Positions 6,282-9,830 of a DNA stretch of 10,155 bases are shown here, in pieces (the first letter of the stretch is position 1; the number at the start of each line of letters is the position of its first letter). Source of the stretch: Candidatus Omnitrophota bacterium (lineage in GTDB: Bacteria > Omnitrophota > Gorgyraeia > 2-02-FULL-51-18 > JAGOUK01). A program made the translations under genes and the position numbers. The notes under the pieces were generated by a model. That model did not search any database. It had not been told where the DNA came from and saw nothing but the letters and a program-made list of their open reading frames with translations. Location of the stretch: NCBI GenBank assembly GCA_020058965.1, contig JAGVCY010000033.1, positions 1-10,155 on the forward strand. Direction: 5' to 3'.

Positions 6282-6992
6282 CTGACTCTCCTCCTTTTTG
6301 GATTCGTCCGATTTCATGTTTTGATATCTGTTCAAGAAAGCGCTCGCTTTCTCCACCGCTTCCGGATTTTGAATAAACCTTTCGAGAAATTCGGCGAAAC
6401 CCGCCGAGAGCTTCACGTTGTCCGGAAAGAATTTCCCGAAAAATCCCTCATTAGCCGCCGGTTCGTCCACGACGTCGACCGAAGAAAGTTTGGCGACCCG
6501 GAGCCGCGCGGGGAGGGTCTGACCTGCCGCATCTTTTTTCGGCGTCTTGCCGTCTGCCTCTAGCTGTTCCTCAAGGTCGTATTCCAGAAGAACAACCGAT
6601 GCCCCGAAGGCCTCCGGGTCGTTTTCGGCCAAATCCATCACATAGGTCGCAAGATCGCCGTCCGGCGTTTTGTATGCCGACTCGTCGAAGTAAAGATCGG
6701 CGCGGACGATGTCGCCTTCCTTGCCGAAGTTTTTGACTCGTCCCAAAAATGTCCCGAGCGCTTCGCTCGACATCATGGGGTGTCCAAAGCGCGACTTGAG
6801 GCCCGTTTTCAGGTTGTTTCCGGCCAAGACAACCTGATCGAGCGTCGCATCGTCGATTTCCCAACCTCTCTGGTCTTTGATGAACCCTTTGCTCATGACC
6901 GCGAAACCGCGGATGATTCCTTTTTCGCGGTCGACGCCGAACCCCTGCTTGATGCCTCTTGCGATTTCCGTTCTTAAAAGCTCACGCTTCAT
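5826..6992 (-). CDS. Capsid maturation protease with C-terminal scaffold domain, 388 aa
   Basis: The N-terminal part (about 1-185) looks like a phage prohead serine protease: SRFGHP places His71, AFGASVV places Ser132, and VDVVDEPA (172-179) is the conserved acidic segment near the end of such domains. After a charged linker (about 200-237) comes a helical scaffold-like region with AERPDLADAL and GAASERKRVLGIL, then a Gly/Asp-rich spacer and a basic C-terminus (KAVKRGQVKELKK) that could bind capsid subunits. The protease would cut scaffold and capsid termini and itself inside the prohead. The start is ATG 6992 (GGAG six bases upstream), overlapping the portal stop by 11 bases; TTG 7007 is an alternative adding five residues. 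Lambda gpC is about 439 aa, but whether this fold is of the gpC/S49 or the herpesvirus-like class was not tested. Confidence 0.85.
   Translation of the reverse strand: MKRELLRTEIARGIKQGFGVDREKGIIRGFAVMSKGFIKDQRGWEIDDATLDQVVLAGNNLKTGLKSRFGHPMMSSEALGTFLGRVKNFGKEGDIVRADLYFDESAYKTPDGDLATYVMDLAENDPEAFGASVVLLEYDLEEQLEADGKTPKKDAAGQTLPARLRVAKLSSVDVVDEPAANEGFFGKFFPDNVKLSAGFAEFLERFIQNPEAVEKASAFLNRYQNMKSDESKKEESQMDLKSLTLEMLKAERPDLADALSSEAKAAGLSEGAASERKRVLGILAKSELPEYLNMRVLSKTAIENGDSVDAAEGKFKDQRIKDLETHAPKTPGPGDGDQAGDASNLSVDEQCKRDWETKPGIQKEFSSLGSYTAYVKAVKRGQVKELKK
6290..6295 (-). promoter_or_regulatory. Internal ribosome binding site for the nested scaffold
   Basis: A perfect AGGAGG on the minus strand within the protease gene, eight bases before ATG 6281, which is in frame with the protease. 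It determines the scaffold start. Its strength is at least that of the decoration and capsid protein sites nearby, which fits a high scaffold to protease ratio. Confidence 0.7.
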
Positions 6993-8592
6993 TTTTGGCT
7001 CCGGCAAGCTCAGTTTCGGGCTCCGGATCCGGACCGCCGGAAGAAGCGCCGAGAATTTTTACGCCGTATTTTTCTTCGAGTTCTTTGACCTTCGCCGCCT
7101 CACGCGCGCGTTGTTCCAAGACTTCCTCCCAGTCACGGCCCTGGGATGCGGTTTCATCCGCAAGTGTCGATATTCCGATATCAATCGCCATCTCGGAGGA
7201 CTTGGCCTCCTTCACCGGATCCACCCACTGCCAGCCGGGCGCGATCCATCGGGCGCGGCACCAGTCGCTTTTTTTCTCGTAGAAAGTTTTGGCCGGAAGC
7301 TGGTTTTTTAGAAACGCTTCTTCCTGAAGCATGTCCCATGCGGGCTGGCAGAGCTTTCTTGAAAGCCAGGCCTGACGCACCATGAAATAACGCCGCGCTT
7401 CCAGTAGCGCCGCTCGGGCACTTGAATAATTCGTTTTCGAGAAATCCTTGGCGACGATTTCATACGGAAGATTAAGTCCCGTCGAAATGGCGCGAAGAAT
7501 CCGATCCACAAACGGCTCGAATTGGCCGCCCGGCCGATTGGGATTAAACGCCGAGATGTCCTCGCCGGGGCCCAGATAATCGATCATCCCCGGCTCCAGT
7601 TCCTGAATCCTCTGTCCTTTGGAATTGGTCTCGGCGGTGTTTCCGAGCGCGGCGGCGTAGTTGTCGTCTTTTTTGACGAAGATGGCGAAGCACGCGGCCA
7701 CCCGCGCGGCGACGAGCTCCGCTTCCATGTAGTCGGCCAAGTCTTTGAAGTAGTTCATGACCGGCGCGAAGAAAGGAACGCCTCTTGTCTGTCCCGGGCG
7801 ATTGACCCAATAAAGATGGAGCACATTCTTCCGCCTGGTTTCGCTGACGGCCGGAATCCGGATGTACCGCTTAACGCCGCGCTCCCTGGACAAGATCATG
7901 TCACCGGGATGCGTTTCACGAATGTGGTAAGCGACCGGCTCCCCGCGCTCGCCGATCTCGACGCCGTAGCGGATATTCTTGTCGGCTTTTTTGTCGGGCG
8001 GGGTTTCGAGGCGGTCGGCTTCCACGACATCGAACGCGAGCGAAAACGGCCGATCTTTGTCCTCGAGCATGAGCGGCAAAAGAACGATCTCCCCGTTTTC
8101 GAGGATTTGACGGTCGACGAGGTTCTGAATTTCGTAGAAGTCCATGCGGTTGCCCGCGTCGGCGAACGGGCACCACTTCTCCCAGTTGTCCTCGGCGGCT
8201 TCCTGAAAGACGGCCGCTTCTTCATCGGAGATACCGAGCTTCTTCGTCTTGACCCGCGACTGGGGCTTAATGCCGGTGCCGACGGTGTTGGAAGTGACGG
8301 TCGTCGTGATTCCGACCGCATGGGCGTCGTTGCGGTTTAAATCGCGGCTTCTCTCGCGCAAGGTCGCAAGATCCGGAAGCAGATCCTCATCCGCCGAACC
8401 CGATCCCGGCCACCAGCTGCCGCGAAGGCGCGTTTTATCTGCGCCTCGGTAGGAACCGAGCATCGATTGCGCCTTGCGGAACGCTTTTCGTTTGTACGCC
8501 GCACCCGGCGAAAAAATACCGATCAGATCGTCAATGCCGCGGGCGATTCGGTTGCCGAAGGATTCGTTTGCGGGAGTTCTTTTTTCGGTCAT
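6982..8592 (-). CDS. Portal protein, lambda gpB family, 536 aa
   Basis: ATG 8592 overlaps the gpW-like stop as ATGA. Length is almost that of lambda gpB (533 aa). Recognisable family features: RDLNRNDAHAVGITTTVTSN (83-102) ending in GTGI, an early region of the portal wing; ENGEIVLLPL (165-174); RPGQTRGVPFFAPVM (265-279); PGEDISAFNPNRPGGQF (342-358); and LPYEIVAKDFSKTNYSSARA (375-394), the conserved region before the stem helices. A charged, Glu/Lys-rich C-terminal tail follows. Twelve copies would form the ring at one vertex through which DNA is packaged and ejected and to which the connector attaches. The 3' end overlaps the protease gene by 11 bases. Confidence 0.93.
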   Translation of the reverse strand: MTEKRTPANESFGNRIARGIDDLIGIFSPGAAYKRKAFRKAQSMLGSYRGADKTRLRGSWWPGSGSADEDLLPDLATLRERSRDLNRNDAHAVGITTTVTSNTVGTGIKPQSRVKTKKLGISDEEAAVFQEAAEDNWEKWCPFADAGNRMDFYEIQNLVDRQILENGEIVLLPLMLEDKDRPFSLAFDVVEADRLETPPDKKADKNIRYGVEIGERGEPVAYHIRETHPGDMILSRERGVKRYIRIPAVSETRRKNVLHLYWVNRPGQTRGVPFFAPVMNYFKDLADYMEAELVAARVAACFAIFVKKDDNYAAALGNTAETNSKGQRIQELEPGMIDYLGPGEDISAFNPNRPGGQFEPFVDRILRAISTGLNLPYEIVAKDFSKTNYSSARAALLEARRYFMVRQAWLSRKLCQPAWDMLQEEAFLKNQLPAKTFYEKKSDWCRARWIAPGWQWVDPVKEAKSSEMAIDIGISTLADETASQGRDWEEVLEQRAREAAKVKELEEKYGVKILGASSGGPDPEPETELAGAKNEA

Positions 8593-8804
8593 GTGGGATT
8601 TGAGAACTTCGCGTAGGTTCTTGCGTTGCCGGATTCGGATGCGATCTCGCGCTTCAATTGATCGCGGAGCTTGCGAAGCTCTTCGAGCGTGATGTACTGA
8701 AGGTTCCGACCGCCGATGGAGTAGGACTGCACCGCCCCGCCCGAAAGACGCGCATCGAGCGCGGCCTCAACCTTATCGAGCAGATCTTGTTTTGCAACGG
8801 CCAT
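8589..8804 (-). CDS. Head-tail joining protein, gpW-like, 71 aa
   Basis: The start is ATG 8804, with GGAGG (8814-8810) five bases upstream; an ATG at 8831 would add nine residues but lies inside the outer arm of an inverted repeat and has no SD. The sequence KVEAALDARLSGGAVQSYS, then IGGRNLQYITLEELRKLRD, has the gpW layout: a helix, a beta-hairpin around a Gly-Arg turn, and a second helix (compare lambda gpW, 68 aa). gpW binds below the portal after DNA packaging, closing the connector before FII and the tail are added. Position just before the portal gene matches lambda W-B. This is the first gene after the terminator-like structure. Confidence 0.85.
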   Translation of the reverse strand: MAVAKQDLLDKVEAALDARLSGGAVQSYSIGGRNLQYITLEELRKLRDQLKREIASESGNARTYAKFSNPT

Positions 8805-8822
8805 CGCATCCTCCAAAAAGTT

Positions 8823-8914
8823 TCCTGACAACCAAATAAAAAAGGCAAGAAAGCGGGTCTAAAAGACCGGTGCTTTCTTGCCTTTCCGGAAAGGACTTTA
8901 TTCGATTGTCAGGA
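8823..8914 (-). repeat. 92-bp composite inverted repeat before the gpW-like gene
   Basis: The terminator hairpin is nested in a longer palindrome. Bases 8823-8840 (beginning TCCTGACAACC) pair with 8897-8914 (ending TTGTCAGGA): 18 positions, of which 16 are Watson-Crick and two are G-U when read as minus-strand RNA. The arms join the 14-bp inner stem directly on one side and through an 11-base bulge (8886-8896) on the other. As RNA this is one long hairpin of over 35 pairs ending nine bases before the SD of the gpW-like gene. No target-site duplication was seen around it, so a transposon-derived element is not supported. It could be an RNase III substrate, a protective 5' structure or a regulatory leader. 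Confidence 0.75.
8838..8885 (-). terminator. Intrinsic terminator facing the structural genes
   Basis: On the minus strand, AAAGGCAAGAAAGC (8885-8872) pairs perfectly over 14 bp with GCTTTCTTGCCTTT (8854-8841), with an extra inner stem AGACC/GGTCT (8868-8864 with 8860-8856). The stem runs straight into a T tract, TTTTTTATTT (8843-8834). The plus-strand direction lacks a T tract (TTTCC). The element should stop transcription coming from the SpoVG cassette. Only about 30 bases separate the T tract from the gpW-like ATG, so no complete promoter fits after it. Confidence 0.8.
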
Positions 8915-8986
8915 CGGCCGATTGATCAGATCGCCGCGAGAAATTCTTGATTTGCATTCAGTTTAAACCCGACTGCGAGTTCGTGA

Positions 8987-9023
8987 AAGGGGGTCGTTCC
9001 CAATTATTAGGAACGACCTTCTT
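8987..9023 (-). repeat. Hairpin spanning the stop codon of the 68-aa gene
   Basis: GGTCGTTCC (8992-9000) and GGAACGACC (9010-9018) form a perfect 9-bp inverted repeat around a nine-base loop (9001-9009) that holds the TAA stop of the upstream gene. Further pairs extend the stem to 8987/9023 in plus-strand RNA, where two of them are G-U. In the minus direction the stem is followed by CCCCCTTTCACG, with only three T, so it is at best a weak terminator; it may instead block 3' exonucleases or cause pausing. Confidence 0.6.
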
Positions 9024-9213
9024 GGCTGGATTTGAGCCGCCGCAACCGGCGCTTGGCCTTGGCAAGCTGATTTCGAAGATATTGATGGATCGCCCAGGCA
9101 ATTTTTTCGGATTCCGTCAATTGATCCTGATTTTTTATTCGTATCATTCGTGTCTCTCTTTTCTGGCCGGACTTGTGACCGCGCCCGTGCGTTAACCGGG
9201 GCCCGAAGGCCAC
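9007..9213 (-). CDS. Small basic protein of unknown function, 68 aa
   Basis: The frame runs from GTG 9213, which has GGAG six bases upstream, to TAA 9007. The C-terminal half is a Lys/Arg-rich helix (LAKAKRRLRRLKSS) after LTESEKIAWAIHQYLRNQ, suggesting a nucleic-acid-binding or electrostatic role. An internal ATG 9147, with a weak GAGAG upstream, would give 46 aa and keep this helical part, while the N-terminal 22 residues are low-complexity, rich in Gly, His and Arg. I do not recognise a family. It is the last gene of the cassette; the stop lies within a hairpin loop. Real coding is likely from helix composition and SD, but the start is uncertain. Confidence 0.5.
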   Translation of the reverse strand: MAFGPRLTHGRGHKSGQKRETRMIRIKNQDQLTESEKIAWAIHQYLRNQLAKAKRRLRRLKSSQEGRS

Positions 9214-9225
9214 CGGCCACTCCGC

Positions 9226-9573
9226 TTATTGTTCTGCCTTCTTTTTTCCCCAGCCCGACTTCCAGCGTTCGACCGCCTGCTTTTGGATTTCGGCCACGCG
9301 GTCCGCCTTGGCCCCGCCGACGATCTCGGCGAGCTCGACCTTGTTCATCACGCGAAAGTTTTTGATCCCGCGCGACTTCACCACCTCCATCAGCTGATTG
9401 CGGCTTTGACCCTCGGTCACGGCCTTTTCGACTTTCACCGGGGCGGGCTTCGCCGCCGCCTTTTTCTTCTTTGCCATCGTCTCCTCCTCTGTTTTGAACC
9501 CCATACGCTCCAGGACGGCGTCACCGCCCTGGGCGTTTATCACGACATCGTGATTCGGGCTTGTGTACTTCAC
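9226..9573 (-). CDS. Protein with SAP/Rho-N-like segment, GTG start, 115 aa
   Basis: GTG 9573 overlaps the SpoVG-family stop as GTGA, suggesting coupling. Residues 1-32 (KYTSPNHDVVINAQGGDAV, then LERMGF) read like short N-terminal modules of small phage proteins. A Lys/Ala/Pro-rich linker follows (AKKKKAAAKPAP), then NQLMEVVKSRGIKNFRVMNK (about 59-78) with VELAEIV, a helix-turn-helix pattern like SAP or Rho N-terminal domains, which bind DNA or RNA. The C-terminus is basic (WKSGWGKKKAEQ). A second in-frame start, ATG 9477, has GAGGAGGAG just upstream and would give 83 aa without the first module; both may be used. Function is not known. Confidence 0.65.
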   Translation of the reverse strand: MKYTSPNHDVVINAQGGDAVLERMGFKTEEETMAKKKKAAAKPAPVKVEKAVTEGQSRNQLMEVVKSRGIKNFRVMNKVELAEIVGGAKADRVAEIQKQAVERWKSGWGKKKAEQ

Positions 9574-9830
9574 TCTTGTTCGTAGGCCTCGAGAATTTTG
9601 GTCTCGATCTCCGCCTTCACCTCGTCGTTCAGAGGCGTAAGGATGTCGAACCACCGGCCGTCCTTCGACACCTTGCGCGGCATCGTCACGATGACACCCC
9701 GTTTTCCCATGACGACGTTGAAGCCCTTCACGATGATCGCGTCGGAGAATTTCACGTCCACGAAGGCCTTGAGATTGCCGTCGCCTGCGATCTTCCGGAT
9801 GTCGAGCACTTCGATATCAAGCGTTTTCAT
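9570..9830 (-). CDS. SpoVG-family nucleic-acid-binding protein, 86 aa
   Basis: ATG 9830 has AAGGA seven bases upstream. The protein fits the SpoVG family: an N-terminal strand pattern (LDIEVLDIRKIAGDG, then LKAFVDVKFSDAIIVKGFNV) followed by GKRGVIVTMPRK, DGRWFDILTPLN and a final helix (VKAEIETKILEAY), as in the core of Bacillus SpoVG. Bacterial SpoVG proteins are about 85-100 aa and, in Borrelia, Staphylococcus and Listeria, bind DNA or RNA and modulate gene expression. Here it is embedded in a phage operon, between a 60-aa unknown and the SAP/Rho-N-like gene. A regulatory role toward nearby transcripts is plausible but is inference. Family presence cannot assign the host, since SpoVG occurs in several phyla. 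Confidence 0.88.
   Translation of the reverse strand: MKTLDIEVLDIRKIAGDGNLKAFVDVKFSDAIIVKGFNVVMGKRGVIVTMPRKVSKDGRWFDILTPLNDEVKAEIETKILEAYEQE

Follow-up and report, generated by a model that had tools for sequence, protein, structure and literature searches.

The 92-bp palindrome at 8823–8914 of the window (the whole stretch of 10,155 nucleotides that we analysed, DNA of an uncultured phage on a Candidatus Omnitrophota contig) belongs, judging from sequence comparisons, to a conserved type of leader RNA, of which it is one variant. This RNA consists of a hairpin (P1), an outer stem (P2) and a terminator (P3), followed by the gene start. We consider it probable that the palindrome forms the 3′ part of a structured leader at the 5′ end of the late transcript, which carries the head and tail genes; in this leader transcription would stop by default and readthrough would gate the genes downstream. 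The architecture, pairing and position of the element are conserved. The same design was found with different letters across many related phages, which suggests an undescribed late-gene switch.

The leader region in the window

The structural genes of the window encode a gpW-like head-tail joining protein, a lambda-family portal, a maturation protease and a Mu-gpT-like capsid, and the portal gene comes next after the gpW-like one; the gpW-like open reading frame matched head-tail joining/adaptor PHROGs and no Pfam family. The palindrome before it comprises a 14-bp terminator stem and a U6 tract, enclosed by a near-complementary outer stem (Table 1). Complementarity was 100% for the inner 14-nt arms and 89% for the outer 18-nt arms. 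The element has the form of an intrinsic terminator, with a G+C-containing stem directly before a U tract. Read 5′ to 3′ on the minus strand, the TTTTTT after the stem is followed by ATTTGG, and part of this T tract and the bases after it pair with the outer 5′ arm. From the end of the outer 3′ arm (8823) there are 8 bases to the GGAGG and 18 bases to the gpW ATG (8804–8802). Folding of minus-strand RNA 8800–8960 gave −61.3 kcal/mol (z = −5.06), and equal stability was reached in 0 of 200 dinucleotide shuffles. A terminator pattern scan of the window, which allowed short loops only, matched just the apex hairpin here (8868–8856) and missed the 14-bp stem.

An earlier sequence-only reading of this DNA had described the perfect 14-bp stem with its T tract facing the gpW-like gene, 18 enclosing paired positions, and pairing of the outer arm with the T tract and the bases just past it. 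The stem and the enclosing positions proved real, and the pairing with the tract was confirmed for part of it. The palindrome does lie just before the gpW Shine-Dalgarno sequence, as had been stated, at a distance of 8 bases rather than nine. The statement that no promoter fits in the remaining 30 bases stands, for a consensus scan of the whole window revealed no promoter-like site, and the fold given above, which had been suggested as a check, came out in favour of a structured RNA. Our analysis added the candidate dyad and promoter module upstream, the P1 hairpin (8937–8915), the palindrome at 8894–8881 and a Twister ribozyme.

The predicted Twister-P5 ribozyme sits directly 3′ of the stop codon of the gene at 9226–9654. 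It was found in nine of ten related loci scanned (L004, L005, L006, L037, L038, L039, L041, L043 and L045) and was absent from L044; it is probably an upstream neighbour with a separate function. A SpoVG-like protein (PF04026, 8.5e-21) is also encoded upstream in the window phage contig, at 9570–9830 (−).

Searches for the element itself were negative. In Rfam release 15, nothing in the leader region of the window exceeded its gathering score, and matches in the window to MIR8008 (27.1 bits vs. 66) and RsaD (20.6 vs. 50) were sub-threshold and judged to be chance. A nucleotide search of 50,697 named phages gave no match to the element; portal relatives occurred in 701 of these records, every one below 60% identity, and none was a close relative of the window phage. 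The leader element was not found in a literature search of titles and abstracts. No second copy was detected in the window's own genome (72% complete) beyond the element and its own reverse arm.

Table 1. Features of the leader region in the window; all lie on the minus strand.
Feature	Coordinates	Strand	Evidence
Imperfect dyad GGTCGTTCC...GGAACGACC then CCC, candidate activator site	8992..9018	-	inverted repeat I2; comparable dyads with GACC/GACT in relatives
Candidate late promoter: TTTCAC (8988–8983), 17-nt spacer, TAAACT (8965–8960)	8960..8988	-	position as in relatives; weak consensus match
Twister-P5 self-cleaving ribozyme (predicted)	9167..9225	-	Rfam RF02684, 38.7 bits (gathering 37.6), E 2.6e-5
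P1 hairpin, 7-nt loop CUGAUCA	8915..8937	-	fold; loop in 44/56 class-1 leaders; helix-1 covariation
P2 outer stem, 5′ arm	8897..8914	-	fold, inverted repeat, covariation
A:B palindrome CCTTTCCGGAAAGG, 14 bp; right half B is also the base of P3	8881..8894	-	palindrome search; A:B covariation
P3 terminator stem, 5′ strand	8872..8885	-	fold, inverted repeat
P3 terminator stem, 3′ strand	8841..8854	-	fold, inverted repeat
U tract, overlapping P3 base and start of P2 3′ arm	8838..8843	-	sequence
P2 outer stem, 3′ arm	8823..8840	-	fold, inverted repeat, covariation
gpW Shine-Dalgarno GGAGG	8810..8814	-	sequence
Gene for a gpW-like head-tail joining protein of 71 aa (ATG at 8804)	8589..8804	-	phrog_5774 8.8e-13, phrog_118 1.4e-9
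Portal gene, lambda-family	6982..8592	-	PF05136 6.7e-109, phrog_21

Conservation of the leader in related phages

Relatives were collected by portal homology from IMG/VR loci (in the second list, the best 80 of 219) and GTDB genomes; the host records are mostly Omnitrophota, and in one GTDB-genome set 17 of 25 records bore the name Omnitrophota, Omnitrophica or Velamenicoccus. Removal of near-duplicates and of stretches shorter than 120 nt from 122 parsed gpW starts left 66 non-redundant loci, three of which (L039, L041, L043) had been found via palindrome patterns and the others via portal homology. A few with misplaced starts (e.g., L012, L031, L060, L134) were retained and scored as misses. 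Pattern matches L042 and L149–L152 were judged to be chance.

A terminator-like hairpin (dG ≤ −8) was present within 120 nt 5′ of gpW in 58 of the 66 loci. Under a strict rule (dG ≤ −15, U tract at most 45 nt from the start), the count was 49/66 for gpW vs. 10/232 for other genes of the same loci. Hairpins that look like terminators after capsid-type genes (L043, L109, L018) were of another type than the leader. The leader terminator was absent from L013 and the near-identical L016, and the proposed gate is therefore not obligatory.

The window-type palindrome occurred in six more loci (L037/L008, L038/L007, L039, L041, L043, L044), which together with the window made up alignment A3. With the P1-P2-P3 structure, 93.4% of its cells were paired and 7 pairs were double-changed, either value being reached in 0 of 500 shuffles, and sliding the structures lowered pairing to 34–51%. 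In helix 1 (P1), both sides had changed in four of the seven pairs. These counts underrate L037, because MAFFT shifts the 3′ strand of its terminator by one column. One member, L044, is a different kind of phage: a phrog_38 terminase lies upstream of its leader (L044:2408-2523), a small open reading frame, a 685-aa gene without a PHROG match and a phrog_9953 capsid lie downstream, and it had no portal match among the loci tested for one. Its leader may represent module exchange between phage lineages.

Replacement of P3 by the A:B helix in A3 (P1-P2-A:B) gave 95.9% paired cells, with three of the five A:B pairs double-changed. Read directly, the segments A/B/C are CCTTT/AAAGG/CCTTT in two loci, the window and L038. 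L041 and L043 share CCTTC/GAAGG/CCTTT, with one G-U, and in L037 all three segments had changed together to CCCAT/ATGGG/CCCAT. B is thus constrained by both of its partners. Covariation in the window class was seen for A:B as well as for B:C, and two mutually exclusive conserved helices, one of them the terminator, were found, as in an attenuator. When transcripts of the seven window-type loci were folded at equilibrium in growing lengths, P3 had displaced A:B in all seven once the U tract was out. Before the U tract, A:B was strong in L037, L041 and L043, variable in the window (0.07–0.82), short-lived in L038 and scarcely present in L039 and L044. Since it loses to P3 after the U tract emerges, and hardly forms in the last two loci, A:B as an antiterminator by itself was disfavoured.

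A second type, class 1, was common among the relatives. It combines a P1 loop that reads CUGAUCA, or a variant of this, with the arms CCCAATA/TATTGGG and with a P3 whose apex is palindromic. A class-1 pattern scan of viral contigs returned 31 stretches with 24 distinct leaders, and a gpW-like open reading frame followed all 24. Alignment A2 held 56 class-1 leaders out of 67 segments, the rest being mostly reverse-strand readings or cut ends. In A2, 95.3% of cells pair and double-change cells numbered 130 vs. 45 in shuffles, and two of five measures did not rise above shuffles (double-changed pairs, 9 vs. 8.1; further pair types, 25 vs. 23.0). Because A2 was selected by CCAATA...TATTGG, its P2 is conserved by construction, and support for P2 comes from A3 and from the test of outer arms leader by leader. 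Rfam gave no match in ten class-1 and other loci, and Twister-P5 alone in ten window-family loci.

A covariance model of the 56 class-1 leaders (R1), from which the window class was left out, found the window at 8945–8831(−) with 21 bits and E 0.0044 in 207 kb, as rank four of nine matches. Among the other window-type loci, L043 was matched at E 0.19 and the remainder gave no forward match at E ≤ 1. R1 had matches at E ≤ 0.001 in 36 of 285 genomes of the phylum, several of the weaker of which read as ordinary terminators or coding sequence; weak genome matches such as L195, L196, L198–L201 and L203–L209 were rejected as chance on the same reading. A window-type model (R2) matched only the window in these 285 genomes.

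These data also bear on the idea that P1-P2-P3 is mainly an mRNA-end structure, that is, a cap-like 5′ element that is protective, or processed (e.g., by RNase III), for a stable late mRNA, with the terminator features secondary. We regard this as rather unlikely. It would account for the pairing of P2, kept in 98.2% of A3 cells though its 3′ arm lies past the U tract, for the 26 of 54 singly tested leaders whose outer-arm pairing ranks with the top 5% of shuffles, and for the many leaders in which the structure stops just short of the ribosome site. L044, however, retains the U tract though it has lost the innermost P2 pairs beside the tract, L010 and L018 have the terminator with weak outer-arm pairing, and the stand-alone copies described below have, by eye, P1 and P3 with no P2. 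Some of the P2 data count against the proposed gate itself: the 3′ arm of P2 is made after the U tract, so that P2 is unable to act on termination except at the tract overlap, L010 and L018 pair their outer arms weakly, and outer-arm pairing is convincing in no more than the 26 of 54 leaders just given.

Candidate promoter region, self-complementary apices and other copies

In the relatives, an inverted repeat lies 5′ of the leader, in many cases with CGACC after it; TTGnnA comes next, and TAnnnT follows at a spacing of 16–17 nt. A scripted search for dyad and hexamers matched 44 of 66 leaders vs. 45 of 283 control stretches, or 36/66 vs. 18/283 with arms of at least 6, and GACC or GACT came directly after the dyad in 29 of the scripted matches. 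The window is one of the 22 leaders without a script match; its weak candidate promoter was placed upstream of the hairpin by comparison with the relatives. Given a dyad and promoter-like sequence upstream, the terminator most likely lies in the 5′ leader of a late transcript.

This arrangement weighs against an insulator, in which the terminator would shield the structural genes from transcripts of the upstream operon and these genes would depend on a promoter elsewhere or on leakage. Terminators are common at operon borders, and the Twister ribozyme upstream would likewise cut readthrough RNA arriving from that side. But the dyad-promoter module lies upstream of the terminator in many relatives, little room for a promoter is left after it, and an insulator would leave P1, P2 and the self-complementary apices unexplained, so that we judge it distinctly improbable.

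We sought a protein regulator such as an antiterminator gene, and the search turned up only a zinc-ribbon neighbour with weak family likeness. A Cys4 zinc-ribbon open reading frame was present at most 1.5 kb upstream of 45 of 64 leaders, and 32 of the 45 end 172–195 nt before gpW; the one in L026 appears unrelated. Scans of three of the proteins placed Ogr/Delta and other zinc families below the Pfam cut-offs (for Ogr/Delta, PF04606, 18.1 bits vs. a gathering score of 26.3, E 0.0026, in one of the three), and PHROG matches were weak. The motif was absent from the window contig. The Cys4 protein of the relatives is a candidate late regulator.

The apices of the leaders are often self-complementary. 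Within 120 nt upstream of gpW, 38 of 66 leaders had a perfect palindrome of at least 12 bp (those of L102 and L134 look unrelated), compared with 4.5% of shuffles and 2.8% of 996 stretches taken from elsewhere; allowing one G-U position, palindromes of at least 12 nt were seen in 48/66 leaders vs. 87/756 control stretches. The palindromic centre varies on constant arms: CCTT with AGCT, GTAC, ACGT or GCGC, CTCG with TCGA or TGCA, and CCAG with TCGA or CATG. Similarly, the P1 loops of the 56 class-1 leaders were CTGATCA (44), TTGGCCA (6), TTGGCCG (5) and TCGGCCA (1, with self-complementarity confined to the core GGCC), and CTCATGA was the loop in six of the seven window-type loci. The apices of L017, L018, L052, L086, L121 and L138 were self-complementary only via G-U pairs, though with a single fixed centre, GGTGCC. 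Palindromic apices as a general property of these genomes were rejected, since just 5 of 95 other terminators had at least 12 bp, two of the five (L064 + and L197) being leader-type elements themselves, although the marker used in this test was crude, with a palindromic apex in just 12 of 26 marked terminators.

Intramolecular folding fails to explain the palindromic centres, because the four bases of a hairpin loop are unable to pair with one another. Both the apices and the P1 loops would be accounted for if separate RNA copies paired with each other, and the retention of self-complementary loops through double changes points to RNA-RNA contact in trans. Template switching in DNA may be the source of the palindromes. 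A purely DNA-level role, as sites for a dimeric DNA-binding protein, as recombination sites or as quasi-palindromic products of template switching, would fit their excess in the leaders but is very improbable, for the P1 stem arms are by eye one base out of register with the loop palindrome, the central four bases vary yet stay palindromic on constant arms, unlike a contact site, and six leaders achieve self-complementarity only with G-U pairs.

Members were also found in other places. L064 (= L194) has P1-P2-P3 with arms GCCAATA/TATTGGC before a gene for 501 aa, and the open reading frame that bears gpW lies about 2 kb farther downstream. L202:1501-1591 (R1 30.6 bits, E 1.6e-4) has P1, P2 (CCCCAAACA/TGTTTGGGG) and a P3 with CCAGATCTGG; Replic_Relax (below cut-off), a TrbC/VirB2 pilin (above) and TraL (below) lie downstream, and a SpoVG-like gene lies upstream, as in the window. 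This is a candidate leader member that heads a conjugation-type operon.

Six further R1 matches (L211–L216), read by eye, consisted of P1 and P3 without P2 and without an adjoining gpW-like open reading frame. In L211, L212 and L214 the copy sits at one end of a small integrated element, with a DUF5659-like open reading frame about 0.42–0.52 kb from the copy start; a primase-like gene and then a MerR-type HTH come after it. In L212 and L214 a serine recombinase is present as well, and the element ends next to a miaB-like gene. Of the five markers, all of them scored as motif matches, L215 had just the recombinase, L216 had a miaB-like gene nearby, and L213 had none. Pfam identified DUF5659, NrS-1 polymerase-like, HTH_17/MerR and resolvase/recombinase domains in L212. 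The dyad-promoter was seen by eye 5′ of the copy in L211, L212, L214 and L215. We consider L211, L212 and L214 to be putative satellites or similar integrated elements. In L212, a noncoding stretch about 80–400 nt after the element start lies ahead of the replication gene; motifs recur in it (GACACTTT..., TATATACGCA), and it is possibly an origin.

Proposed mechanism and comparison with known systems

In the mechanism that we infer, a dyad-activated late promoter just upstream would start transcription near 8953. The RNA would fold P1, then in some variants the short A:B hairpin, and then P3, which would capture B from A during synthesis of the U tract. Most polymerases would stop by default at 8843–8838 and release a leader RNA of about 110–120 nt. 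Late expression would then need readthrough, with an antitermination factor or RNA partner acting at the promoter, at P1 or on the A:B/P3 choice, and in readthrough transcripts P2 would close and cap the 5′ end of the mRNA just before the gpW ribosome site.

The sequence-only reading had held that, if the terminator works, the head and tail genes need antitermination, partial readthrough or a processed transcript. Because a terminator precedes the structural genes in most related loci, readthrough or antitermination is the natural inference, and to that extent this part of the claim is supported; any of the mechanisms it had listed (antitermination, partial readthrough or processing) may apply. 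It was right that the combination is unlike a plain intergenic terminator, and the compensatory changes in relatives that it proposed as a check were seen, the nested pairing being kept through double changes.

An extension of the proposal is that leader copies pair in trans via the self-complementary P1 loops (UGAUCA, UGGCCA, UCAUGA) and the P3 or A:B apices. Termination would then depend on leader dose, and satellite P1-P3 RNA could join in, tapping or disturbing the late programme of the helper. We hold this as speculative and, on present grounds, unlikely. The stand-alone copies at the ends of putative satellites would be a test system for RNA tapping of a helper's late switch. If the proposed mechanism is true, late genes of phages with mostly Omnitrophota host records are gated by a leader-RNA family that had no Rfam 15 match in any locus scanned.

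In bacterial attenuators, a leader segment B pairs with an earlier segment A or a later segment C, and B:C is the terminator. Window-type B likewise pairs with A or C, but here the A:B helix is short and gives way as soon as C has been transcribed, and the apices are self-complementary.

The P2/P4 Ogr-Delta system has a dyad upstream of late promoters, a Cys4 zinc protein, and satellites that share the late promoters of the helper. A dyad, a nearby Cys4 zinc protein and putative satellites are all features of the leader loci as well, whereas the zinc-ribbon match fell below the cut-off, as given above. Phage P2 is not known to have a leader terminator.

The put RNA of HK022 is described as two stem-loops, with putL just after the promoter (PMC9378689). 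In that account, put belongs to early promoters and also suppresses terminators 10 kb away without a protein factor (PMC9378689). Compared by description, the leader resembles put in being a structured nascent phage RNA and differs from it in that the terminator here is part of the structure.

In the lambdoid Q system, as outlined in PMC6606751, the late promoter PR′ is followed by the leader terminator tR′, late genes need readthrough, and Q binds between −35 and −10. A candidate late promoter followed by a leader intrinsic terminator, with a regulator site at the promoter, recalls this PR′-tR′ arrangement. The layout, a candidate late promoter 5′ of the leader terminator, was found in relatives (36 of the 66 leaders); in the window the candidate promoter is weak, and neither the consensus scan nor the script detected it. 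Unlike the Q system as described there, the dyad here lies upstream of the −35 element and the leader RNA itself is conserved in structure (P1, P2, A:B/P3). Taken as an analogy, where the terminator stands and how the promoters are laid out in the relatives would both suit a late leader that stops by default and needs readthrough, as at lambdoid tR′.
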